A stretch of 64,000 bases of DNA from Pseudomonadota bacterium (GTDB lineage: Bacteria > Pseudomonadota > Alphaproteobacteria > Reyranellales > Reyranellaceae): NCBI GenBank assembly GCA_018240745.1, contig JAFEFF010000193.1, positions 1 through 64,000 on the forward strand, in the 5' to 3' direction. This document shows, piece by piece, positions 25,558-58,137 of this stretch. Position 1 is the stretch's first letter, and every line of letters begins with the position of its first letter. The translations under genes and the position numbers were made by a program. The notes below the pieces were generated by a model. The model was not told where the DNA came from. It saw only the letters and a list, made by a program, of their open reading frames with translations, and did no database searches.

Positions 25558-26670
25558 ATGAGAAGGTTCTACGGCAGCCTGGCGGTCGCGGCGCTGGCGC
25601 TCGCAGCCACGCCCGCAGTCGCGCAGATCAAGATCGCTTCGGTCGGCCCGATGACCGGCCAGTACGCCGCGTTCGGCGAGCAGCTGAAGAAGGGCGCCGA
25701 GATGGCGGTCAAGGACATCAATGCCGCCGGCGGCGTCAACGGCCAGAAGGTCGAGTTGCAGATCGGCGACGATGCCTGCGATCCCAAGCAGGCGACCGCT
25801 GTCGCCAACAAGCTCGCAGCCGACAAGGTCGTGTTCGTGGCCGGCCACTACTGCTCGGGCAGCTCGATTCCGGCGTCGGATATCTACCATGAGGCCAAGA
25901 TCCTGCAGATCACGCCAGCCTCGACGAACGTCAAGCTGACCGACGACGCCTTCAAGAAGGGCAACACCACGGTCTTCCGCACCTGCGGCCGCGACGACGT
26001 GCAGGGAACGACCGTCGGCAACTACCTCATCAAGTATCACAAGGGCAAGCGCATCGCGATCCTCAACGACAAGTCGCCGTACGGCAAAGGCGTCGCCGAC
26101 GAGACCAAGAAGGCTCTGAACAAGGGCGGTATTCGCGAGGCGATGTACGAGTCGTACAACGATACCGACAAGGACTTCACTGCACTGATCAACAAGATGA
26201 AGCAGGCCAAGATCGACATCATCGTGCTCGGCGGCTACCACACGGCGGGTGCGCTGCTGATCAAGCAGTCGCGCGAGCAGGGCTTCGGCGCACAGATGGT
26301 CGGCTTCGATGCGCTCGAGGATGCCGAGTTCGGCAAGCTGGGCGGCGCCGCCACCGACGGTGTGCTGATGTCCTTCCCGCCGAAGGCCGAGGACGACCCG
26401 AAGAATGCCGCCCTGGTGAAGAAGTTCCGCGACTCCGGTTACGAGCCGGCCGGCTACACGCTGTTCACCTACGCCGCCGTGAAGGTGTGGGCCGACGCTG
26501 CGACCAAGGCGAAGTCGGTCGAGGCCGACAAGGTCGCCGCCGCGCTGCGGTCCGGCACCTTCGACTCCGCGGTTGGCCCGCTGACCTATGACCAGAAGGG
26601 CGACATCAAGGATCCGGTCTATGACATCTACGTCTGGAAGGGCGGCAAGTCGTACCCGGCGACCAAGTAA
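25558..26670 (+). CDS. livK: Branched-chain-type ABC transporter substrate-binding protein LivK
   Basis: A 370-residue periplasmic receptor. Signal peptide MRRFYGSLAVAALALAATPA ends near residue 22. The mature protein begins IKIASVGPMTGQYAAFGEQLKKG and continues with DINAAGGVNGQKVEL, the normal LivK fold type I. Ligand-contact features such as GHYCSGSSIPASDIY (usually binding the alpha-amino/carboxylate group) are present, favouring an amino acid or close analogue. GGGAG lies six bases before the ATG, and a strong terminator follows. Confidence 0.94.
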   Translation: MRRFYGSLAVAALALAATPAVAQIKIASVGPMTGQYAAFGEQLKKGAEMAVKDINAAGGVNGQKVELQIGDDACDPKQATAVANKLAADKVVFVAGHYCSGSSIPASDIYHEAKILQITPASTNVKLTDDAFKKGNTTVFRTCGRDDVQGTTVGNYLIKYHKGKRIAILNDKSPYGKGVADETKKALNKGGIREAMYESYNDTDKDFTALINKMKQAKIDIIVLGGYHTAGALLIKQSREQGFGAQMVGFDALEDAEFGKLGGAATDGVLMSFPPKAEDDPKNAALVKKFRDSGYEPAGYTLFTYAAVKVWADAATKAKSVEADKVAAALRSGTFDSAVGPLTYDQKGDIKDPVYDIYVWKGGKSYPATK

Positions 26671-26689
26671 GATCGTCTCCCCGACGCGA

Positions 26690-26717
26690 AAGGGCCCGGT
26701 GCGCCGGGCCCTTTTTC
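26690..26717 (+). terminator. Rho-independent terminator of the liv operon
   Basis: Ten-pair stem AAGGGCCCGG/CCGGGCCCTT with a TGCG loop, followed by a run of T residues, 20 bases after the livK stop. Confidence 0.9.
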
Positions 26718-26829
26718 TTTTGCGTTATCAAGGTCTTGTGTCGCGCCTCCATGATCTGGGGGCCAAGGTGACACCGGTCCCCCCGATGTGGTATCGGGGG
26801 ACTCAATCTGTAGAGGGGCATTTCATCGG

Positions 26830-27279
26830 ATGGCGGGGGCCACCATCGCGGTCGCGGCGGATCACGCCGGCTTCGACCTGAAGGAGATTCTCAAGGGCGA
26901 CCTGCAGGCTGCAGGATACGCCGTGCTTGACCTCGGCACCAACTCGACCGTCTCGGTCGACTATCCGGACTATGGCGCCGCCATGGGCGAGGCGATCGCT
27001 GCCGGCAAGGCCGAGCGTGGTGTCCTCGTCTGCGGGTCGGGCATCGGCATCTCGATCGCCGCAAATCGCAATCCCAAGGTCCGCGCCGTGCTGGCGCACG
27101 ATACGACCTCGGCCCGCCTGTCACGCGAGCACAACGACGCGAACGTCGTGGCATTCGGTCAGCGTCTGATCGGCGTCGAGGTGGCGCGCGAGGCGCTCAA
27201 GGTGTTCCTCAACACGCCGTTCGAAGGCGGCCGTCATGCCGGGCGCGTCGCCAAGCTTTCCGGAGTAACGAAATCATGA
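26830..27279 (+). CDS. rpiB: Ribose 5-phosphate isomerase B
   Basis: A 149-residue LacAB/RpiB-family enzyme that interconverts ribose 5-phosphate and ribulose 5-phosphate, supplying a riboflavin precursor among other roles. Visible features are [12 protein letters not shown] at the N-terminus, the catalytic cysteine in [16 protein letters not shown] (near residue 70), and [15 protein letters not shown]. The ATG giving [12 protein letters not shown] was preferred to an upstream GTG because it gives family length. Its stop overlaps the glyA start. It heads the glyA-nrdR-rib transcript. Confidence 0.93.
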
Positions 27280-28580
27280 GCCAGGCCGCCGCGAAGCACG
27301 ACACGCCGCTGGCGATGTTCACCACGAGCCTCGCCGAGTCCGATCCGGTGATCGAGGAGGTTCTGAAGGGCGAGTTGCACCGCCAGCAGGAGCAGATCGA
27401 GCTGATCGCGTCGGAGAACATCGTCTCGCGCGCCGTGCTCGAAGCGGCCGGCTCGGTGCTGACCAACAAATACGCCGAGGGTTATCCCGGGCGGCGCTAT
27501 TACGGCGGCTGCGAGGAGGTCGACAAGGCCGAGCAGCTTGCGATCGATCGTGCCTGCAAGCTCTTCGATTGCGGCTTCGCCAACGTCCAGCCGCACTCGG
27601 GTGCGCAGGCGAACCAGGCCGTGTTCATGGCGCTGCTGAAGCCGGGCGACACCTTCCTCGGCATGGCGCTCGACCAGGGCGGCCATCTCACGCACGGCTC
27701 GCCCGCCAACCAGTCGGGCAAGTGGTTCAGGGTCGTATCCTACGGCGTCAAGCCCGACACGCACCTGATCGACTACGAGCAGATGGAAGAGGTGGCGCGG
27801 CGGGAGAGGCCGAAGCTGATCATCGCCGGCGCTTCGGCCTATTCGCGACGGATCGACTGGGCGCGCTTCCGCAAGGTCGCGGACGAGGTCGGCGCCTTTT
27901 TCATGGTCGACATGGCGCATTATGCCGGCCTGATTGCCGCCGGCGTCTATCCCAGCCCGCTGCCGCATGCGCATGTCGTGACGACGACCACGCACAAGAC
28001 GCTGCGCGGCCCGCGCGGCGGCATGATCCTTTCGACCGACGCCGAGCTCGGCAAGAAGATCAACTCGGCGGTATTCCCCGGCCTGCAGGGTGGGCCGCTG
28101 ATGCACATCATCGCCGCCAAGGCGGTCGCGCTCGGCGAGGCGCTGCGGCCGGACTTCAAGGCTTATGCGCGGCAGGTCGTCGACAATGCGCAGGCGCTCG
28201 CCGCCGCGCTCACCGAGCGCGGGCTCAAGATCATCTCGGGCGGCACCGATAGCCACGTCATGCTGGTCGACCTGCGGCCGAAGAAGGCAACCGGTATCGC
28301 GGCGGAGAAGGTGCTCGATCGCGCCGGCATCACCGTCAACAAGAACAGCATCCCGGGAGATCCGGAGAAGTTCACCGTCACGTCGGGCGTGCGCCTGGGG
28401 TCGCCGGCCGGCACGACACGCGGTTTCACGGTCGCCGAGTTCCGCCAGATCGGCAACCTGATTGCCGACGTGCTCGACGGAATCGCCAGGAACGGCCCGG
28501 ACGGCGACGCCCAGGTCGAGGCGCAGGTGCGCGGCAAGGTTCGCGATCTGTGCGCCCGCTTCCCGATATACCGCGACTGA
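27276..28580 (+). CDS. glyA: Serine hydroxymethyltransferase
   Basis: A 434-residue PLP enzyme converting serine and tetrahydrofolate to glycine and 5,10-methylene-tetrahydrofolate. Conserved segments include [50 protein letters not shown] and the PLP lysine in [15 protein letters not shown]. The start overlaps rpiB by four bases. The position before nrdR and the riboflavin genes is the common alphaproteobacterial arrangement. Confidence 0.97.
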
Positions 28581-28613
28581 AGAAGCGCAACGATAAACAG
28601 GGGGAACCACTAG

Positions 28614-29081
28614 ATGCGCTGTCCATTCTGCGGTCACGAGGATACCCAGGTTAAGGACTCGCGACCGACCGACGACAATTCGGCGATCCGCCGGCGGCGC
28701 TACTGCCCGTCGTGCGGCTCGCGCTTCACCACGTTCGAGCGCGTGCAGCTGCGCGAGCTCACCGTGGTCAAGAAGAATGGCCAGCGTGTCGCCTTCGATC
28801 GCGACAAGCTCGCGCGTTCGATCTCGGTCGCCTGCCGCAAGCGCCCGGTCGATCCCGAGCGGGTCGAGCGCGTGGTGAACGGCATCGTGCGCCGCCTCGA
28901 AAGCTCCGGCGAGAGCGAGATCCCCTCGACGCAGATCGGCGAGCTGGTGATGGACGCGCTGCGCGCGCTCGATCCCGTGGCCTATGTGCGCTTCGCCTCG
29001 GTCTATCGCAATTTCCGCGAGGCCCGGGACTTCGAGGAGTTCATCTCCGATCTCGCCGAGACCCAGAGCCTGAAGGACTGA
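28614..29081 (+). CDS. nrdR: Transcriptional repressor NrdR
   Basis: A 155-residue repressor of ribonucleotide reductase genes. The N-terminal zinc ribbon has [15 protein letters not shown] and CPSCGSRF (residues 3-34). The ATP-cone domain follows (about 49-139) with [19 protein letters not shown]. Binding of ATP or dATP to the cone controls DNA binding at paired NrdR boxes. Downstream only three bases separate it from ribD. Confidence 0.97.
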
Positions 29082-29084
29082 CGC

Positions 29085-30167
29085 ATGATGCGCGCGGCGC
29101 TCGCGCTGGCGCGCCGATCGCTCGGCCGCACCTGGCCCAACCCCGCCGTGGGTTGCTTGATCGTGAAGGAAGGAGTCGTCGTCGGCCGCGGCCGCACCCA
29201 GGATGGCGGTCGCCCGCACGCCGAGGTCGATGCGCTCGACCAGGCGGGCGAGGCGGCGCGAGGCGCCACGGCCTACGTTACGCTCGAGCCCTGCTCGCAC
29301 TTCGGCAAGTCGCCGCCCTGTGCCGATGCCCTGATCGAGGCGGGCGTGGTGAAGGTCGTGTCGGCGATGGAGGACCCCAATCCGCAGGTGAACGGGCAGG
29401 GGCATGCCCGCCTGCGCTCGGCCGGCATCGAGGTCGAGGTCGGCGTGGGCGCGAAAGAGGCGGCCGAGATCAATGCCGGCTTCCTGCTGCAAGTGCGCGA
29501 GCGTCGGCCGCTTTTCCATCTCAAGGTGGCGTCCTCCCTCGATGGCCGGATCGCGACGGCTTCGGGCGAGAGCAAGTGGATCACCGGTGCCACGGCCCGT
29601 GCCCACGGCCAGCGGCTGCGTGCGACGCATGACGCGATCCTGGTTGGCGCCAACACTGTCGCAGCCGACGATCCCGAGCTGACGTGCCGGCTGCCGGGAT
29701 TGGACGGCTACTCGCCGGTGAGGATCGTGCTCGATTCGAACGCGCGGACATCTCCCGGTTCGAAGCTGGCCCTGACGGCCAACCAGACTCCGGTGTGGAT
29801 TGTGTGCACGCGCGATGCTCCGATGTCGGCGCGCGAGGCATTGCAGGCGAGGGGCGTCCAGGTGATCGAGGTTGCGTCCAATGCGCAAGGGCGGGTCGAC
29901 ATCCTGTCGGCCGCCCGCGCTCTTGCCGAACGCCGGCTGACCCGTGTCCTGATCGAAGGCGGGGGCGAGGTGGCCGCGACCTTTCTCAAGGCCAACCTCG
30001 TCGACCGCCTGACCTCTTATCGGGCCGGCCTGCTGCTGGGGGCGGACAGCCGCTCTGCGGTTGCGCCCCTGGGGCTCGAAAAGCTCGATTTCGCGCCCCG
30101 GTTCACCCTGGTTTCCTCCCGGCCGCTCGGCGGCGACGTGGTGGAAACCTGGCATCGAGCGCCTTAA
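29085..30167 (+). CDS. ribD: Bifunctional riboflavin deaminase/reductase RibD
   Basis: A 360-residue two-domain enzyme for steps two and three of riboflavin synthesis. The N-terminal deaminase has the zinc motifs PHAEVDAL and PCSHFGKSPPC (about residues 44-88). The C-terminal reductase contains KVASSLDGRIATASGESKWI, ILVGANTVAADDPELT and RVLIEGGGEVAATFL. It deaminates then reduces the pyrimidine product of GTP cyclohydrolase II. It is the first of the four rib genes here. Confidence 0.96.
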   Translation: MMRAALALARRSLGRTWPNPAVGCLIVKEGVVVGRGRTQDGGRPHAEVDALDQAGEAARGATAYVTLEPCSHFGKSPPCADALIEAGVVKVVSAMEDPNPQVNGQGHARLRSAGIEVEVGVGAKEAAEINAGFLLQVRERRPLFHLKVASSLDGRIATASGESKWITGATARAHGQRLRATHDAILVGANTVAADDPELTCRLPGLDGYSPVRIVLDSNARTSPGSKLALTANQTPVWIVCTRDAPMSAREALQARGVQVIEVASNAQGRVDILSAARALAERRLTRVLIEGGGEVAATFLKANLVDRLTSYRAGLLLGADSRSAVAPLGLEKLDFAPRFTLVSSRPLGGDVVETWHRAP

Positions 30168-30177
30168 GTAGGCGGCC

Positions 30178-30777
30178 ATGTTCACGGGGATCGTCACCGA
30201 CATCGGTGAAATCGCCGCCCTCACGCCGGGCGGCCAGAAGGGCGACCGCCGCTTCGTCATCCGCACGAAACACGACATGGGGCCGGTGCCGATGGGCGCT
30301 TCGATCGCCTGTTCGGGCTGCTGCCTGACGCTGATCGAGAAGGGGCCCGACTGGTTTGCGGTCGAGGCCTCCGTCGAGACCCTCGACAAGACCCATCTGG
30401 GCGACTGGAAGCAGGGCGACCGCATCAACCTCGAGCTCTCGCTCAAGCTCGGCGACGAGCTGGGCGGCCATCTGGTCTATGGGCATGTCGACGGCGTCGG
30501 AAGGATCGTCTCGATGACGCCGGAAGGCGGCAGCGTGCGCTTCGTGTTCGAAGCGCCGGGCGATCTCGCCCGCTTCGTTGCCTCCAAAGGCTCGATCGCG
30601 GTGGATGGGGTCTCGCTCACCGTGAACGAGGTCGACGGCAATCGCTTCGGCGTGAACATCATTTCTCACACCCAGGCGGTGACGACTCTGGGAAAGGCCA
30701 AAGTCGGCCAGCGGGTCAACCTTGAGGTCGATATGCTCGCGCGATACGTTCAGCGACTGTTGGAGCACAGACCATGA
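30178..30777 (+). CDS. ribE: Riboflavin synthase alpha subunit
   Basis: A 199-residue enzyme dismutating two lumazine molecules to riboflavin. The N-terminal MFTGIV is diagnostic, and the protein consists of two lumazine-binding repeats (about residues 1-97 and 98-195): GCCLTLIE with VEASVETLDKT in the first, and GVSLTVNEVDGNRFGVNII in the second. Works as a trimer, often with RibH capsids. Stop overlaps the ribBA start. Confidence 0.96.
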   Translation: MFTGIVTDIGEIAALTPGGQKGDRRFVIRTKHDMGPVPMGASIACSGCCLTLIEKGPDWFAVEASVETLDKTHLGDWKQGDRINLELSLKLGDELGGHLVYGHVDGVGRIVSMTPEGGSVRFVFEAPGDLARFVASKGSIAVDGVSLTVNEVDGNRFGVNIISHTQAVTTLGKAKVGQRVNLEVDMLARYVQRLLEHRP

Positions 30778-31928
30778 GTGCGCTCGAAAAGGACGCCTGG
30801 CGGATCACCTTCGGTGAGGTGAAGGCCGCGGCCGAGGACATCATCGAGGAGGCCCGCAAGGGCCGGATGTTCATCCTGGTCGATGACGAAGACCGGGAAA
30901 ACGAAGGCGACCTGGTCATCCCGGCGCAGTGGGCGACCGCCGAGGCGATCAACTTCATGGCCAAGCATGCACGCGGGCTGATTTGCCTCGCCCTGACCCG
31001 CGAGCGTGTCGAGCAGCTCGGCCTCAAGCTGATGGCGCAGAACAACGGCACCCGCCACCAGACCGCCTTCACCGTGTCGATCGAGGCGCGCGAGGGCGTC
31101 ACCACCGGCATCTCCGCCGCCGACCGTGCGCGCACCGTCTCGGTCGCGATCGACCCGTCGTGTGGTCCGCAGGACATCGTCACGCCGGGCCACGTCTTCC
31201 CGCTGGTCGCCAAGGACGGCGGCACCCTGGAGCGTACGGGCCACACCGAAGCGGCGGTCGACCTGGCGCGGCTCGCGGGCCTGACGCCGGCCGGTGTGAT
31301 CTGCGAGATCATGAACGACGACGGCACGATGGCCCGCCGCAACGACCTGATCAGCTTCGCCCAGCGCCACAACCTCAAGATCGGCACCATCGCCGATCTG
31401 ATCGCCTACCGCCGGCGCTACGATTCCATCATCAAGCGCATCAGCGAGACCAAGCTCGACAGCATCTATGGCGGCGACTTCCGTTGCGTCGTCTACATCA
31501 ACAAGGTGACGATGGCCCAGCACGTGGCGCTGGTGAAGGGCGATCCGGCTGCGCCCGGCCCGATCACCGTGCGCATGCACGCGGTCAACCTGTTCACCGA
31601 CGCGCTGGGGCAGAGGAGCGGCGGTCGCGGGGGCGAGATCGAGGCATCGATGCGCTACATCGCGGAGCAGGGGCGCGGCGTGATCGTGCTGATCCGCGAG
31701 CCGCTCACCGTCGTGCTGGCCGAGCAGCGCCGGCGCGCCGGCGAGCCGATCCCGCCGGCAGGCGTCGAATTGCGCGACTACGGCGTCGGCGCCCAGATCC
31801 TGATCGACCTCGGGGTCAAGGAAATGGTCCTGCTGACCAACAGCAGGAAGAGCATCGTCGGCATCGAGGGATTCGGCTTGAAGGTCGTCGGCCAGAAGCC
31901 GGTGCCCGGTCGTCCGTCGCGGGCCTGA
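30774..31928 (+). CDS. ribBA: DHBP synthase fused to a degenerate GTP cyclohydrolase II domain (RibBA-like)
   Basis: A 384-residue protein. The N-terminal half is a complete 3,4-dihydroxy-2-butanone-4-phosphate synthase (DDEDRENEGDL, RHQTAFTVSIEAREGVTTG, PGHVFPLVAKDGG, RTGHTEAAVDLARLAG). The C-terminal half aligns with GTP cyclohydrolase II. However, the zinc cysteines normally seen in HSECLTGD...LRCDCG are replaced (HAVNLFTD...QRSGGRG), and the catalytic tyrosine region is absent. The second half is therefore probably inactive in GTP hydrolysis, so a separate RibA should exist elsewhere. It may be regulatory or structural. Confidence 0.9.
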   Translation: MSALEKDAWRITFGEVKAAAEDIIEEARKGRMFILVDDEDRENEGDLVIPAQWATAEAINFMAKHARGLICLALTRERVEQLGLKLMAQNNGTRHQTAFTVSIEAREGVTTGISAADRARTVSVAIDPSCGPQDIVTPGHVFPLVAKDGGTLERTGHTEAAVDLARLAGLTPAGVICEIMNDDGTMARRNDLISFAQRHNLKIGTIADLIAYRRRYDSIIKRISETKLDSIYGGDFRCVVYINKVTMAQHVALVKGDPAAPGPITVRMHAVNLFTDALGQRSGGRGGEIEASMRYIAEQGRGVIVLIREPLTVVLAEQRRRAGEPIPPAGVELRDYGVGAQILIDLGVKEMVLLTNSRKSIVGIEGFGLKVVGQKPVPGRPSRA

Positions 31929-31955
31929 TCATGTTGCGGGAAGCTCACGTCTTCC

Positions 31956-32011
31956 GGACCGCGCGCATCCCGCGCGCTCATGATCATGAGCGCGCAGGAT
32001 GCGCGCGGTCC
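31956..32011. repeat. Near-perfect 56-bp palindromic element, copy 1
   Basis: Two 28-base arms match with a single mismatch and meet without a spacer. Each arm contains the inner palindrome GCGCGCATCC/TGCGCGC type and starts GGACCGCGCGC. The right arm recurs almost identically at 57615-57642. It is a dispersed intergenic palindromic repeat, here placed between ribBA and ribH, and it would form a strong hairpin in the rib transcript. Confidence 0.8.
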
Positions 32012-32019
32012 AAAAGACC

Positions 32020-32496
32020 ATGAGCACACGTACCGAAAATCCTACTGCGCGACCCCCCGTCGGAGGGGTCGACGGCGCGCGCATCCTGATCGTCGAATCG
32101 CGCTACTATCCCGAGATCGCCGACGCGCTGATCTCCGGTGCCGACGCCGAGATCAGGAAGAACGGCGCGATTTACGAGCGCGTGGTCGTGCCGGGCGCGT
32201 TCGAGATACCAGGGGCGATCGCCCTCGCCGCCGACCGCTACGACGGCTTCCTGGCATTGGGCTGCGTCATTCGCGGCGAGACCACGCATTATGACTATGT
32301 CTGCGGCGAGAGCGCGCGCGGGCTGATGGACCTGTCGGTCCACAGGAAGCTCGCCATCGGCTACGGCATCGTCACGGTCAACACCATGGAGCAGGCCAAG
32401 GCGCGCGCCGAGACGCATCGCGGCGACAAGGGTGGCGACGCGGCCCACGCCTGTCTCGCCATGGTGGCGCTGCGGCGCCGTTGGCGCAATTCGTGA
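32020..32496 (+). CDS. ribH: 6,7-dimethyl-8-ribityllumazine synthase
   Basis: A 158-residue enzyme condensing the RibD product with the DHBP synthase product. Conserved strands are ILIVESRYYPEIADALI, VPGAFEIPGAIALA, GCVIRGETTHYDYVC with the catalytic histidine, and GIVTVNTMEQAKAR. The ATG eight bases after the palindrome gives MSTRTENP; a more upstream start would be inside the palindrome and is unlikely. Its stop overlaps the GTG of nusB. Confidence 0.95.
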   Translation: MSTRTENPTARPPVGGVDGARILIVESRYYPEIADALISGADAEIRKNGAIYERVVVPGAFEIPGAIALAADRYDGFLALGCVIRGETTHYDYVCGESARGLMDLSVHRKLAIGYGIVTVNTMEQAKARAETHRGDKGGDAAHACLAMVALRRRWRNS

Positions 32497-32963
32497 GCAC
32501 CCAGCCGAAGCCTCCGAGTCGCCGTCAGGCCGCGCGCCTTGCGGCCGTGCAGGCGCTCTACCAGTGGCAGGAAGGCCAGGACGAGCCGGGCGACATCGTC
32601 GCGCAGTTCCTGAACGTGCGTGCCGGCGAAGCGGGCGAGGGCGGCATGCGCCGGGACGCCGACAAGCCATTGTTCAAGGACGTGGTCGAGGGCACGGCCA
32701 GCCACAAGGACGAGCTCGAGAAGACGGTGTCCTCGGCGCTGGCCGAGAACTGGACCTGGGGCCGCATCGACCGGCTGGTGCGCGCGATCTTGCTGGCCGG
32801 TGCCTACGAGCTGGTCCATCGCCGCGACGTGCCCCCCAAGGTGGCGATCAACGAGTATGTCGAGATCGCCCACGCCTTCTACGACCAGGGCGAAGCGACC
32901 TTCGTGAACTCCGTGCTCGATCGCGTGGCGCGCCAGGAGCGCGCGGCCGATCTCGCGGGATAA
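32493..32963 (+). CDS. nusB: Transcription antitermination factor NusB
   Basis: A 156-residue all-helical RNA-binding protein that pairs with NusE at boxA in rRNA leader antitermination. The N-terminal RRQAARLAAVQALYQWQ and the C-terminal IDRLVRAILLAGAYELVHR with AINEYVEIAHAFYDQG and FVNSVLDRVAR are typical. The GTG start overlaps the ribH stop (GTGA), the regular alphaproteobacterial ribH-nusB coupling. Confidence 0.95.
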   Translation: MSTQPKPPSRRQAARLAAVQALYQWQEGQDEPGDIVAQFLNVRAGEAGEGGMRRDADKPLFKDVVEGTASHKDELEKTVSSALAENWTWGRIDRLVRAILLAGAYELVHRRDVPPKVAINEYVEIAHAFYDQGEATFVNSVLDRVARQERAADLAG

Positions 32964-32970
32964 GCTCTCC

Positions 32971-33936
32971 ATGGCGAAGCGGCGGATCGGTGAGTTCGAG
33001 CTGATCGCCCGCTACTTCGCGCCGCTCGCCAGGGGCTTCGCCGGCGCGCGCGGGCTCAAGAGCGACAATGCGTTTCTGGCAGCGGATGCCAGGCACGATC
33101 TGGTCGTGAAGACGGACACCATCGTCGCCGGCGTTCACTTCCTCGCCGACGAAAAGCCCGAGCTCGTGGCTGCGCGGGCACTGCGCGTCTGTCTGTCCGA
33201 TCTCGCGGCGGGCGGGGCCACGCCCTATGCCTATCAACTGTCGCTGTCGCTGACGCTCGACTGGACCGAGCGTTGGGTAGCGGGCTTTGCGCGCGGACTC
33301 GCGGCCGACCAGCGCCGCTTCGGCATTGCGCTGAGTGGTGGCGACACGACCGGCACGCCGGGGCCGACGACGGTGACCATCGCCGCCTTCGGGCGCGTGG
33401 CTCGTGGCAAGGGCTTGGGCCGCGACGGTGCTCGGGCAGGGGACGAGCTCTGGGTAACCGGCACGATCGGCGATGCCGCGCTCGGCCTGCTCGCGGCGCG
33501 CGGCGAGCTGAAGGCGCCGGCGCTCGAGAAGCGTTATCGCCTGCCGCAGCCTCGCACGGCGTTCGGGCCGCGTCTGGTCGGCATTGCGAGCGCGACGGCG
33601 GACATATCGGACGGTCTGCTGGCTGACGCCGGACACATCGCCGATGCCTCGCGGCTGTCGGTCCACATCGAGCGGGATCTCGTGCCGCTGTCGGCTGAGG
33701 CCCGACGCATACTCGCTGCGAAGCCCGCGCTGTGGAGCAATGTCCTTGGTGGCGGCGACGATTACGAGCTCGCGATCGCCGTTCCGCCGCGAAAGGGCGC
33801 GCGGCTGCTGGCGGCGTCGCGTGCGACAGGTGTGAAGGTCACCCGCATCGGTGGCTTCGCAAAGGGCAGGGGAGTCGTCCTGACCGTTGCGGGGCATGCG
33901 CGGCGCGCAGCCCAGACCGGCTACGTCCACTTCTGA
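32971..33936 (+). CDS. thiL: Thiamine-monophosphate kinase
   Basis: A 321-residue PurM-fold kinase that phosphorylates thiamine monophosphate to the diphosphate cofactor. It begins with RRIGEFELIARYFAPLA and has the metal-binding VVKTDTIVAGVHFL, SDLAAGGATPYAYQLSLSL and SATADISDGLLADAGHIA. The distance to nusB is only seven bases, so it is likely the last gene of the rib-nusB transcript. Confidence 0.94.
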   Translation: MAKRRIGEFELIARYFAPLARGFAGARGLKSDNAFLAADARHDLVVKTDTIVAGVHFLADEKPELVAARALRVCLSDLAAGGATPYAYQLSLSLTLDWTERWVAGFARGLAADQRRFGIALSGGDTTGTPGPTTVTIAAFGRVARGKGLGRDGARAGDELWVTGTIGDAALGLLAARGELKAPALEKRYRLPQPRTAFGPRLVGIASATADISDGLLADAGHIADASRLSVHIERDLVPLSAEARRILAAKPALWSNVLGGGDDYELAIAVPPRKGARLLAASRATGVKVTRIGGFAKGRGVVLTVAGHARRAAQTGYVHF

Positions 33937-45394: not shown

Positions 45395-46732
45395 TTAGTC
45401 GGCGAGCCCGTGCTCGTTGCCGACATAACCGTGGCGATGGCCGAACCGTTCGGTCATCACCGTTGCGAAATCCTTGTCCGGCCCGGCGATCCAGCCGCCG
45501 GCGCGTACAGCATAGCGCGCGGCCGAGCCGGCCGCCTTGGGCACCTCGCCGCTGGCCAGGGCCCGCGCCGCGCCCATGATCAGCTTGCGGAACTCGACGA
45601 TGCCGAAATCGGTCGGGCCGAGATGCTCGCGCGTGCGGTCCTGGATAGGGCCCTGGCTGTCCTGGATGGCGGCGTCCTGCTCGCTCACGCCCATGATGCC
45701 GGTGAAGCTCTCGGTCTTCTGCTTCTCGCGGTCGAGCATGTAGTCGTTGCGGATATTGCGTACCGGCACGTAGTCGGCGTCGACCTCGGCATGCAGGCTG
45801 AGACCGCTGGCGTACTTCTCGCGTTCGGAGTTCGTGAACGGCCGGTCGGGCAGCCAGCTGTAGGTGTAGATCCAGCACGTGACGTCATCGACCGGCACCC
45901 AGCACTGGCCGTGATAGACGTCGCCCGGAAAGGCGACCGGCACCAGCGCATGGTTGGGCATCAGGAACTGCGAGATGCGCCAGTACTTGTCGGCTGAATC
46001 GGTCTGGCGCGCCGCGCCGATCGCAAGCCCGGTATCGTGACCGAGGATCGCGAACCTGGGCCGCGGATCGTCCATCACCCAGCGGATGCGGTCCTGCAGC
46101 TCCTGTCCCGCACCGATCGCCGAGGTGGTCCGGAAGATCTCCAGCTTGGCCTTCTCGTCCCTGGTCGGCACCCTGTGCAGGAACGAGAAGTGCGCCGTGT
46201 CGATCGCGCCTTCGAGGCTCTGCACCCAGTTGCAATCCTGCCATTTCTTGGAGACGTAGCGATGCGATGCCGGCACGAGCCCGAGCTCGAGTTGCGGCAG
46301 CTCCGGCACCTGCTCTCGCGGGCCCATGTATACCCAAACGATGTCGGCCCACTCGCGCACCGGATAGGCGTGCAGCTTGATGGTATTCTTGTACGAAGAC
46401 TCGGGCGGGGACGTCGGCAGGTCGACGCAGTTGCCCTGGACGTCGAACTTCCAGCCGTGGAAGGCGCAGCGCAGGCCGCACTCCTCGTTGCGGCCGTAGT
46501 ACAGATTGGCGCCGCGATGCGGGCAGTGCGGCTCGACGATGCCGATGCGGCCTTCTGTGTCTCGGAAGGCGAGCAGGTCTTCGCCCAGAATCCTGATCTT
46601 CTTCGGGGGGCCGTCGCGCCCGGGCAGTTCCTCGCTCAGCAGGGCCGGCATCCAGAACCGGCGCAGCAGCGCGCCCATCGGCGTGTCCTTGCCGCTTCTC
46701 GTGAGGAACTCGTTGTCGGCCCTGCTGAGCAT
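45395..46732 (-). CDS. Rieske non-heme iron oxygenase (copy 1)
   Basis: A 445-residue aromatic-ring oxygenase component of the single-polypeptide VanA/phthalate-oxygenase type. The Rieske 2Fe-2S ligands are in CPHRGANLYYGRNEECGLRCAFHGW (two CxH/CxxH pairs, about residues 70-94, spaced over the loop). The mononuclear iron site is EGAIDTAHFSFLH. It hydroxylates or O-demethylates an aromatic substrate and needs a separate reductase, which is not seen here. It overlaps the homologous upstream gene by one base (TGATG). Confidence 0.92.
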   Translation of the reverse strand: MLSRADNEFLTRSGKDTPMGALLRRFWMPALLSEELPGRDGPPKKIRILGEDLLAFRDTEGRIGIVEPHCPHRGANLYYGRNEECGLRCAFHGWKFDVQGNCVDLPTSPPESSYKNTIKLHAYPVREWADIVWVYMGPREQVPELPQLELGLVPASHRYVSKKWQDCNWVQSLEGAIDTAHFSFLHRVPTRDEKAKLEIFRTTSAIGAGQELQDRIRWVMDDPRPRFAILGHDTGLAIGAARQTDSADKYWRISQFLMPNHALVPVAFPGDVYHGQCWVPVDDVTCWIYTYSWLPDRPFTNSEREKYASGLSLHAEVDADYVPVRNIRNDYMLDREKQKTESFTGIMGVSEQDAAIQDSQGPIQDRTREHLGPTDFGIVEFRKLIMGAARALASGEVPKAAGSAARYAVRAGGWIAGPDKDFATVMTERFGHRHGYVGNEHGLAD

Positions 46733-48066
46733 CAGTCCCCCAGACCGTATTGCTGGCCGACGTAGCCGCGCGTGTGGCCGAAGCGCGCCGTCATCACGGC
46801 ATCGAGATTCTTGTCCGGTGCGGCGACGGCGCCGCCGGCGCGCACGGCATAGCGGCTCGACGAGCCGGCGGCCTTCGGTTCTGCGCCGGTCTGCAGGGCA
46901 CGCGCCGAGCTCATCAGCAGCTTGCGGAACTCGACGATGGCGACGTCGGTCGGGCCGAGATGCTCCTTCGTGCGATCCTGGATCGGACCCATGCTGTCCT
47001 GGATCGCGGCATCCTGCTCGCTGACGCCGACGATGCCGGTGAAGCTCTCGTCCTTCTGGGCCTGGCGATCGAGCAGGTAGTCGTTGCGCGGGTTGCGCAG
47101 CGGCACGTAGTGGTCGTCGATCTCGGCATGCACGTTGAAGCCTGAATCGAACTTGGCACGTTCTGTATTGCTGAACGGCCGGTCGGGCTGCCAGCAGTAG
47201 GTGTAGATCCAGCACGACTTGTCATCGACCGGCACCCAGCACTGGCCGTAGTAGATCTCGCCGGGAAAGGCGGTCGGCGTGTAGGCGTGATTGGGCATCA
47301 GGAACTGGGAGATGCGCCAGTAGAGGTCGGCACCATCGGTCTTGCGCGCCGCGCCGATCAGCAGGCCGGCATCGTGGCCGTGGACGGTGAACTTCGGCCG
47401 CGGGTCGTTGTGAATCCAGCGGATGCGGTCGTCGGGCGTCGACTGGTCGGCGATCGCGGCCTTGGCGAGCGCCGCGCGCGCCTTGGCATCATCCTTGGCC
47501 AGCACGGCATGCAGGAAGGAGAAGTGCGCGGTATCGAGCGCGCCTTCGACGCTCTGCACCCAGTTGCAGTCCTGCCATTTCTTGGTGACGTAGCGGCTCG
47601 ACGCCGGCACGAGACCAAGCTCGAGCTGGGGCAGCTCGGGCATCTTGTCCCTGGGGCCCATATAGACCCAGACGATGTCGGCCCATTCGCGCACCGGATA
47701 GGCGAGCAGCTTGATGGTGTCCTTGTAGGAGGATTCGGGTGGCGAGGTCGGCAGGTCGACGCAGTTGCCATCGACATCGAACTTCCAGCCGTGGAAGGCG
47801 CAGCGGATGCCGCACTCCTCGTTGCGGCCGTAGTAGAGACCGGCGCCGCGATGTGGGCAGTGCGGCTCGACGATGCCGATACGGCCGTTGGTGTCGCGAA
47901 AGGCCAGCAGGTCCTCGCCGAGTACCTTGATCTTCTTGGGCGGCCCGTCACGTTCCGGCAGCTCCTCGCTGAGCAGCGCCGGCATCCAGAACCGGCGCAG
48001 CAGGTCGCCCATCGGCGTGCCCGGGCCGGTGTGGGTGAGGAAGTCGTTGTCCGCCTTGCTCAGCAT
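46732..48066 (-). CDS. Rieske non-heme iron oxygenase (copy 2)
   Basis: A 444-residue close paralogue of the downstream gene, with the same Rieske segment (CPHRGAGLYYGRNEECGIRCAF...) and iron site EGALDTAHFSFLH. The two differ mainly in the middle third (ILAKDDAKARAALAKAA-type region versus VPTRDEKAKLEIFRTTSA), the part that usually lines the substrate pocket. GAGGAG precedes the ATG. This gene is first in the oxygenase-oxygenase-GST transcript and is separated from metY by a long palindromic element. Confidence 0.92.
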   Translation of the reverse strand: MLSKADNDFLTHTGPGTPMGDLLRRFWMPALLSEELPERDGPPKKIKVLGEDLLAFRDTNGRIGIVEPHCPHRGAGLYYGRNEECGIRCAFHGWKFDVDGNCVDLPTSPPESSYKDTIKLLAYPVREWADIVWVYMGPRDKMPELPQLELGLVPASSRYVTKKWQDCNWVQSVEGALDTAHFSFLHAVLAKDDAKARAALAKAAIADQSTPDDRIRWIHNDPRPKFTVHGHDAGLLIGAARKTDGADLYWRISQFLMPNHAYTPTAFPGEIYYGQCWVPVDDKSCWIYTYCWQPDRPFSNTERAKFDSGFNVHAEIDDHYVPLRNPRNDYLLDRQAQKDESFTGIVGVSEQDAAIQDSMGPIQDRTKEHLGPTDVAIVEFRKLLMSSARALQTGAEPKAAGSSSRYAVRAGGAVAAPDKNLDAVMTARFGHTRGYVGQQYGLGD

Positions 48067-56579: not shown

Positions 56580-57584
56580 CTACAGCGCCGGCATCACTTC
56601 CTTGGCGAACAGCTCCAGGGAGCGCTTGGACTCCTCGAACGACAGGTCGCCGAAGGCGAGACGACAGAGGCAGTAGTTGATGCCGGCAATGTCGTTATCG
56701 CGTTTCATGCGCTCGCGCACGGTGGAGGGCGAGCCGGCGATGATGTAGCCCTGTGCCAGCGCGTCCTCGAACTTCTCGGGGATCAACTGGCGCGGCAGGC
56801 CGACACCGTGCGCGCGCCAGAGATGGATCAGCGCGTCGTACCACAGGAGGAAGGCACGCTTCGCCGCGCTCTGCGCTTCCTTGTCGGTATCGCCGACCAG
56901 GACGTGGCGGCTCAATCCGACGAACGGCATCTGCGTCTCGTCCCGGCCGAGCGCCTTCCAGGCGGCGCGGTACCGCGCGGTGAAGGCGCCGACGCCCTCG
57001 GCCTTCATGCCGACCACGGTGTTGTATCCCTGCTTGGCGAGGCGGTCGGCGCTGTCCAGCGAATTGGCGCCGTACCACAGCGGCGGGTAGGGCCGCTGCA
57101 CCGGCTGCATCTCCATCGGTACGTCCGTGAAGGTGAAGTACTTGCCGTGATGGTCGAGGCGCTTCTGCGTCAGGCCCTTCAGGATCACCTCGGACGCCTC
57201 GGCGAAGCGCTCCGGACCGGTCGCCGGATCGACGCCGTAGTAGCCGACCTCGTACGGCGAGATGCCACGGCCGAGCCCGAGCTCGAGGCGGCCGCCGCTC
57301 AACTGGTCGAGCATGCAGATCTCGTCGATCAGGCGCAGCGGGTGATAGAGATTCACCGTGTAGACCAGCGGTCCGAAGCGGAGCGTCGTGGTGCGCTGCG
57401 CGACGGCGGCGAGGAACACGCTGGGCGAGGGCGCCATGCCGAGCGGCGTCGCATGGTGCTCGGCGATGTGATAGGCGTGGAAGCCCGCGCGCTCATAGAG
57501 CTCGATCAGCTTCAGCCGGTCGCCGAACTGCCGGTGCAGGTCGCCGCCCGAGCGGTCCATGTGGTCGAAGACACCGAATCTCAT
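56580..57584 (-). CDS. LLM-class flavin-dependent oxidoreductase
   Basis: A 334-residue luciferase-like TIM-barrel monooxygenase. The N-terminus is MRFGVFDHMDRSGG, then YHIAEHHATPLGMAPSPSVFLAA and RLELGLGRGISPYEVGYYG, with IAGSPSTVRERMK near the end. Such enzymes use reduced FMN or F420 to oxidise small organics. The ATG at MRFGVFDH was used; the further upstream codons lie inside a palindromic repeat and are not coding. The substrate is unknown. Confidence 0.9.
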   Translation of the reverse strand: MRFGVFDHMDRSGGDLHRQFGDRLKLIELYERAGFHAYHIAEHHATPLGMAPSPSVFLAAVAQRTTTLRFGPLVYTVNLYHPLRLIDEICMLDQLSGGRLELGLGRGISPYEVGYYGVDPATGPERFAEASEVILKGLTQKRLDHHGKYFTFTDVPMEMQPVQRPYPPLWYGANSLDSADRLAKQGYNTVVGMKAEGVGAFTARYRAAWKALGRDETQMPFVGLSRHVLVGDTDKEAQSAAKRAFLLWYDALIHLWRAHGVGLPRQLIPEKFEDALAQGYIIAGSPSTVRERMKRDNDIAGINYCLCRLAFGDLSFEESKRSLELFAKEVMPAL

Positions 57585-57586
57585 GA

Positions 57587-57642
57587 GGACCGCGGGCTTC
57601 CAGCCCGCTCTTCCGCATGAGCGCGCAGGATGCGCGCGGTCC
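57587..57642. repeat. Palindromic element, copy 2 (diverged)
   Basis: The right arm (57615-57642) is almost identical to the right arm of the palindrome at 31984-32011. The left arm is a related variant (GGACCGCGGGCTTCCAGCCCGC) and has its own short palindrome. It lies directly before the flavin oxidoreductase start. The matching length (56 bases) shows both copies belong to one dispersed family. Confidence 0.75.
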
Positions 57643-57648
57643 ACTGAG

Positions 57649-58137
57649 TCATAACGCCCTCTTCTTGCTGCTGATCACGCCGCTGGCGATGCCGTGCCAT
57701 TCGATGGTGCCGCTGAGCCGCGAGTGCTCGATCTTGGGGCAGCGGTTCATCACCACCTTGATGCCTGCGTCCTCGGCGCGCTTGGCGGCTTCGTCGTTGC
57801 GCACGCCGAGCTGCATCCACACCACCTTTGCGCCGTGCTCGATGGCGTCGTCGGTGATCGGGCCGGCCGCCTCGGAGTTGCGGAAGATGTCGACCATGTC
57901 GGCTTTCTGCGGCAGCTCGGCCAGCGAGCCGTAGACCTTCTGGCCGAGGATCTCCTGGCCGGCCGCGGCCGGGTTGACCGGGATCACCTTGTAGCCGCGG
58001 TCGAGCAGGTACTTCGCTGCGAAATAGCTCGGTCGATTCCAGTTGGCGGAGAGCCCGACCATGGCGATGGTCTTGGTATTCCGCAGAATTTTGCGAAGAT
58101 AGGCGTCGTCGTAACGGTCGTGATTCACAGCGGCCAT
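57649..58137 (-). CDS. CoA-binding domain protein (YccU-like)
   Basis: A 162-residue Rossmann-like CoA-binding protein. TIAMVGLSANWNRPSYFAAKYLLDRGYKVIPVNP (about residues 23-56) is the family core, followed by VDIFRNSEAAGPITDDAI and VWMQLGVRNDEAAKRAEDAGI and the C-terminal CPKIEH. The family includes succinyl-CoA synthetase-like folds without the ligase domains; the function of the small members is unknown. It is divergent from the OYE-family gene, with only 16 bases between starts. Confidence 0.91.
   Translation of the reverse strand: MAAVNHDRYDDAYLRKILRNTKTIAMVGLSANWNRPSYFAAKYLLDRGYKVIPVNPAAAGQEILGQKVYGSLAELPQKADMVDIFRNSEAAGPITDDAIEHGAKVVWMQLGVRNDEAAKRAEDAGIKVVMNRCPKIEHSRLSGTIEWHGIASGVISSKKRAL

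Follow-up and report, generated by a model that had tools for sequence, protein, structure and literature searches.

The 56-nt palindrome at the junction of the ribBA-type gene and ribH raises the question of whether it belongs to the riboflavin operon or entered it from elsewhere, and of what it means for the gene that follows. The features discussed are listed in Table 1; the window is the whole 64,000-nt stretch of DNA that was analysed. A sequence-only reading had described a near-perfect 56-bp palindrome that would form a very stable hairpin in the transcript; the palindrome was confirmed, as was the predicted stability of the fold. At 27 of 28 bases the arms 31956-31983 and 31984-32011 pair as reverse complements, with one mismatch, and an imperfect extension carries the inverted repeat out to 31949-32018 (35 + 35 nt, 91% complementary, no spacer). 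The RNA of 31940-32025 folds with -67.3 kcal/mol, versus a shuffle mean of -29.1 (sd 3.4, n = 200; z -11.4). Two terminator-like sites were found in 31700-32300, and neither is at the element: they map to 31825-31848 on the minus strand. In 26000-33000, near the rib genes, no Rfam family, the FMN riboswitch included, reached the gathering threshold. With neither a terminator-like site at the element nor an Rfam match, the reading of the palindrome as an intrinsic terminator or a riboswitch was ruled out.

Table 1. Coordinates of the features discussed, as positions in the window.
Feature	Position	Strand	Basis
ribBA-type gene upstream of ribH, stop TGA 31926-31928	30774..31928	+	translation, profile match
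30-codon frame from the ancestral ribH ATG to the TGA overlapping the present ATG (ATGA)	31931..32023	+	sequence; expression inferred only
Inferred insert footprint, 91 bp replacing two bases (CG), net +89; includes outer arms and ribH ATG	31935..32025	+	22 relatives
REPIN, two inverted REP hairpins, near-perfect 56-bp palindrome	31956..32011	.	sequence, repeat search, fold
Left REP, GGACC foot and hairpin GCGCGC-ATCCC-GCGCGC	31956..31977	+	sequence pattern
Right REP, the left-REP unit on the other strand, loop ATCCT	31990..32011	-	sequence pattern
ribH, lumazine synthase, start homologous to relatives (M-S-T-R-T-E-N)	32020..32496	+	translation, profile, relatives
Second REPIN, complete element, hybrid stems GCGGGC (left) / GCGCGC (right)	57587..57642	.	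repeat search, pattern

The palindrome is almost certainly a REPIN. It consists of two inverted REPs able to form a hairpin, and it belongs to a multicopy family. The earlier reading had called for a genome-wide count and had allowed for the case that only two copies exist. In the 5.88-Mb draft genome the 14-base arm pattern GGACCGCGNGCNTC has 175 exact matches (87 and 88 on the two strands), versus nine (5 and 4) for the reversed control. Within the window alone, a loose pattern allowing three mismatches found five matches versus 4.9 expected in shuffles; four of the five are exact, and all four lie within the two REPINs. A covariance model built from 16 copies of the REPIN gave at least 150 genome matches at no fewer than 87 places, many of them matched on both strands because the REPIN is nearly symmetrical. 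The best match is the ribH copy with 93.3 bits.

The anatomy of the family was examined in 114 loci of the same genome (427,669 bases, some overlapping). They yielded 69 doublets, of which one was counted double, as well as 46 single halves; since the loci were picked for holding matches, the ratio of doublets to singles is no genome-wide estimate. Two of the loci (L165 and L166) are near-identical, with a single mismatch noted on visual comparison of their flanks; they possibly represent the same locus, present at two contig ends, although they were not flagged as exact duplicates. The REP unit reads GGACC-[GCGxGC-loop-GCxCGC]-TCATGA and is followed by its inverse, with a spacer of 12-14 nt between the halves in 54 of 69 doublets. 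The consensus feet are GGTCC and TCATGA, and the tetranucleotide GTAG/GTGG that marks the hairpin foot of canonical REPs is absent. No CGTC foot occurs in the consensus either and a RAYT is linked to the family, so that it does not correspond to the CGTC REPs.

The sequence-only reading had treated the palindrome as one long hairpin. This part did not stand up to the comparison within the family, which indicates two short hairpins as the conserved unit. Among the 67 doublets of 50-62 nt, the outer stems are identical in 42 and differ in 25. In the differing doublets, two apparently spurious ones (L016:2565 and L176) being kept among them, 273 of 300 positions pair within the halves, versus 118 of 150 between them. 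The within-half score, which is the best of four loop lengths, reaches 5.46 of 6 in these doublets and 4.93 of 6 for mixed halves of random copies scored likewise; the across-half score involves no such choice. Each half still pairs with itself where the stems differ, and therefore the short hairpin is the conserved unit; a single long hairpin was rejected in this role, as the hybrid copies keep the pairing inside each half. It follows that the long palindrome arises when both halves share one subtype. In the alignment of 16 copies, covariation was 0.260 for two hairpins and 0.205 for one long hairpin, both above shuffles and not clearly separated from each other.

High copy number is combined with an intergenic location. 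Called genes contain none of 68 doublets, while they cover 94% of the window. The doublets lie between convergent (28), co-directional (36) and divergent genes (1) or at edges (3). A stop codon lies no more than 12 nt from the element in 33 instances and a start in nine, and seven called starts overlap the element; the distances to starts are approximate, since the genes were called with a simple hexamer caller whose training set was 24 long ORFs from the window. The placement resembles the REP distribution given in the part of PMC3733652 consulted here.

A REP-associated transposase, which the earlier reading had proposed to look for, was found. The genome contains one detected Y1_Tnp gene, located outside the window on contig C138 (G000:C138, L031:1252-1812). 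It sits between two inverted GGACC REPs, as RAYT genes do between their associated REPs, with its start codon directly after the left REP and its stop TGA within the ATGA of the right one. The product scores 89.1 bits with the NCBIfam model REP_Tyr_transpos (cut-off 80), and the sole solved structure matched is TnpA-REP (4er8, E 2.5e-5). By analogy with characterised TnpA-REP proteins, the REPs may be mobilised by this RAYT as single-stranded hairpins.

The RAYT was compared with 20 sequences from congeners and three from named records, giving 24 in total. The tree omits L032/L035 (taken as L086/L089), the G003 fragments and the distant homologues L037-L054 and L098. The 24 RAYTs divide into clades of 16 and 8 with support 100/99, and clade and flanking REP type are concordant in 23 of them. 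By pattern, GGACC REPs stand on both sides of 15 of the 16 first-clade genes; the exception (L036) has a visible, mutated GGACC REP upstream. All eight second-clade genes are flanked by GCGCCAC REPs, in one case (L095) on one side only, and one first-clade gene (L087) has an additional GCGCCAC site. Among the distant homologues, several are flanked by palindromes of other kinds, and in some no flanking palindrome is visible.

Copy number tends to follow the type of the RAYT. Genomes with a GGACC-type RAYT have a median of 117.5 GGACC matches (n = 10, own genome included) versus 13 in those without (n = 15; one-sided p 0.0006, uncorrected for relatedness or completeness, and with G003, whose sole RAYT sequences are fragments not assigned to a type, counted as lacking one). 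About 1-20 arm matches per genome is near the reversed-pattern background. The type-specific test supersedes an earlier split by any RAYT match (median 73 in 14 genomes versus 6 in 11 without, p 0.009). The link between RAYT and copy number is not strict, as three genomes (G002, G005 and G020, of which G005 is 82% complete) have 121-135 arm matches and no RAYT match. A second REP family (GCGCCACTNNAGTGGCGC) occupies 72 sites in the own genome, where only the GGACC-type RAYT was found (e.g. L145:1577, L023:1501), and some GGACC doublets are nested between GCGCCACTNNAGTGGCGC REPs.

The junction itself was compared with that in congeners. Of 24 searched, 22 could be aligned across it; in G008 the contig ends before the junction, and G016 gave no useful match. 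The element is absent from the ribBA-ribH junction in all 22, as is to be expected of a mobile element. The ribH genes of the relatives begin with ATGTCGAC, in the form ATG/GTG-TCG/TCA-AC (GTG in G003, TCA in G011), and CTGATCATGTCG is common to four of them (L103, L106, L111 and L116). At the present junction CTGATCATGT is kept, then come 91 bp and then ACACG; therefore the ATG at 32020 lies in the inserted part. It falls within the right end of the insert (AAAAGACCATGAGC), a CATGA end of a kind found repeatedly among the copies. Insertion at the ribH start would thus have converted an ancestral CTGATCATG-TCGACAC into CTGATCATGT-[91 bp]-ACAC. The comparison suggests that the ribH start codon is likely to have been rebuilt by the REPIN insertion, the present ATG being derived from the end of the insert. 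The sequence-only reading had correctly placed the palindrome between ribBA and ribH, but rather than simply preceding the ribH start it interrupts the ancestral one. We propose, with high confidence, that the REPIN is a non-autonomous inverted REP pair which was dispersed in this Reyranella-type genome by its cognate RAYT and landed on the start of ribH.

The encoded start M-S-T-R-T-E-N is the same as in most relatives. Its serine codon is AGC, where relatives have TCG or TCA. This difference has two possible origins: ATGAGC came in with the insert, or a duplication of CATG was accompanied by a change in the second codon. With the net gain of 89 bp, the ancestral ATG no longer shares the reading frame of ribH. 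It now opens MLREAHVFRTARIPRAHDHERAGCARSKRP, a frame of 30 codons ending in the ATGA of the new start, which can be a chance product. An in-frame ATG at 31999, in the right REP, is an alternative ribH start that would add seven residues; called starts have the same offset in L142 and L167. The ribA domain of the ribBA gene scores only 60 bits versus a cut-off of 205.85. The zinc cysteines of GTP cyclohydrolase II were not seen in this gene, which we take to be possibly a RibBX-like protein.

CATGA ends are frequent around other copies. The motif occurs within nucleotides 5-16 outside GGACC/GGTCC at 64 of 136 ends, versus 4 of 136 at nucleotides 19-30. Eighteen own loci (of 68 doublets) were compared with G023, and 14 junctions were resolved and four were not. 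In G023 the element is present at one of the 14 (L156), four are empty or nearly so and nine contain 52-503 nt of other sequence. The element at L058 is absent in 10 of 10 relatives, and the two copies at L145 are absent from G023. The cleanest empty site is that of L142, for which G023 reads CTCATGAGCGC with a single CATGA and the own genome has CATGA on both sides of the insert. Its layout is that of ribH: CATG, 22 nt, the 56-nt element, 7 nt and CATGAGC, with a net gain of 89 bp in both. At the empty sites of L020, L075, L133 and L161, compared with G023, no CATGA-type or common duplication was found; a general target-site duplication is thus not established. Tentatively, REPINs of this family might mend the junctions that they enter: CATG(A) on both sides would leave a TGA upstream and an ATG downstream, so that both proteins stay intact at overlapping stop-start codons. 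If this is true, ribH is translated from a transposon-made start and coupled via a transposon-made leader peptide. If CATG was duplicated at ribH as at L142, only the change of the serine codon from TCG to AGC remains to be explained.

Folding calculations point to a consequence for ribH. The energy to open positions -15 to +15 at the ribH start is 26.6 kcal/mol here, versus a median of 12.8 (6.6-19.6) in the 22 relatives. It drops to 7.0 kcal/mol when the 34 nt upstream, which form the right arm, are held open, as by a ribosome on the leader. The insert is predicted to keep the ribH start inaccessible except when a ribosome unfolds it, and initiation of ribH translation would be affected. Ribosomes finishing the 30-codon leader could melt the hairpin and re-initiate at ribH. 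To judge from the fold and the ATGA overlap, such re-initiation would keep ribH coupled to ribBA; without traffic on the leader the ribH start would be buried.

The palindrome could alternatively be a regulatory RNA hairpin specific to this operon, under selection because it attenuates or processes the distal rib genes, in line with the effect that the sequence-only reading had envisaged. The stability of the fold (z -11.4) and the predicted burial of the ribH start fit such a function. We regard it as very unlikely, because the element also stands at dozens of other gene junctions and is missing from this one in every assessable congener, and neither the terminator nor the Rfam search returned anything at the element. 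Another possibility is a family of terminal inverted repeats that the RAYT does not move, such as an old IS remnant, with the RAYT gene simply inserted into it. The lack of a GTAG foot would suit this origin, as would the three congeners that keep more than 100 arm matches with no RAYT match. It is nevertheless highly improbable in view of the match between the RAYT clades and the type of REP at their flanks, seen in 23 of 24 cases and for two families in one genus.

A further alternative concerns the start codon. The ATG at 32020 may be native, with the element inserted on its upstream side and the second codon altered from TCG to AGC. The unchanged M-S-T-R-T-E-N speaks for this, and at other copies, e.g. 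L161, L075 and L142, relatives have an equivalent of the ATG that follows the element. Against it, CTGATCATGT, as found in L103, L106, L111 and L116, is preserved left of the insert, so the native start string is already accounted for there. The ATG also lies in a CATGA end that recurs across the family, and TCG to AGC requires three base changes. A native ATG is thus rather unlikely, and a start codon rebuilt from the insert is the reading that we prefer.

The arm had also been reported to recur at 57615-57642. The recurrence is real over 27 of 28 bases, the first base being different, and it forms part of the second REPIN. This element lies between the minus-strand genes 56580-57584 and 57649-58137. 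All three relatives with both flanks resolved (G023, G015 and G022) have other sequence at this site, and comparison with them identifies the gene start adjoining the element as native. A different palindromic repeat, of the CATCCTGAGCGAAGCGAAGGATCT type and with variants, is found in the congener G023 at the junction corresponding to window position 57587 and at those of L018, L070, L134 and L167, which would fit gene junctions serving as common landing sites for different palindromic repeats. Elsewhere in the window, at 45397-47788, two direct repeats spaced 1334-1337 bp apart are 77-85% identical over 300 nt, which suggests tandem paralogous genes.

The ribH site provides a defined before/after case of how a REPIN in an operon may rewire the translational coupling of a riboflavin-pathway gene. 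In the open-licence literature searched, no description of a REP-type element altering the start codon of a conserved gene was found. The system also adds an alphaproteobacterial REPIN/RAYT pair without a GTAG foot, and with two REP/RAYT pairs in one genus the co-evolution of REPs and transposases becomes testable by partner swapping. In the portion of PMC3116915 consulted, the REPINs of Pseudomonas fluorescens SBW25 are likewise inverted REP doublets that form a hairpin, are extragenic and RAYT-linked and show compensatory changes; the present ones differ in their alphaproteobacterial host and in the GGACC/TCATGA flanks of the hairpins. REPtrons and TIRtrons/TIRYTs, as presented in the sections of PMC3733652 at hand, similarly have a tyrosine transposase gene enclosed by inverted REPs or TIRs, and these repeats are also found dispersed, many of them as dimers. 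There, the ends of GTAG REPs often provide stop codons for neighbouring ORFs, whereas at ribH the effect is on the start codon of a conserved gene. As the GTAG foot is absent, the present elements are nearer to the TIRYT kind outlined in the same sections. The CGTC REPs of Alphaproteobacteria share the host class, the dimers and the intergenic placement, but according to those sections they have no dedicated transposase, while the GGACC REPs have one. The E. coli TnpA-REP (PDB 4er8), in the part of PMC8266576 consulted, shares a homologous core over residues 76-180; REPs of E. coli have the GTAG motif and a bulge in the stem, in contrast to the short, mostly perfect stems found here. The REPIN/RAYT pair described here thus joins a known kind of system, without the GTAG foot and with an unusual consequence at ribH.
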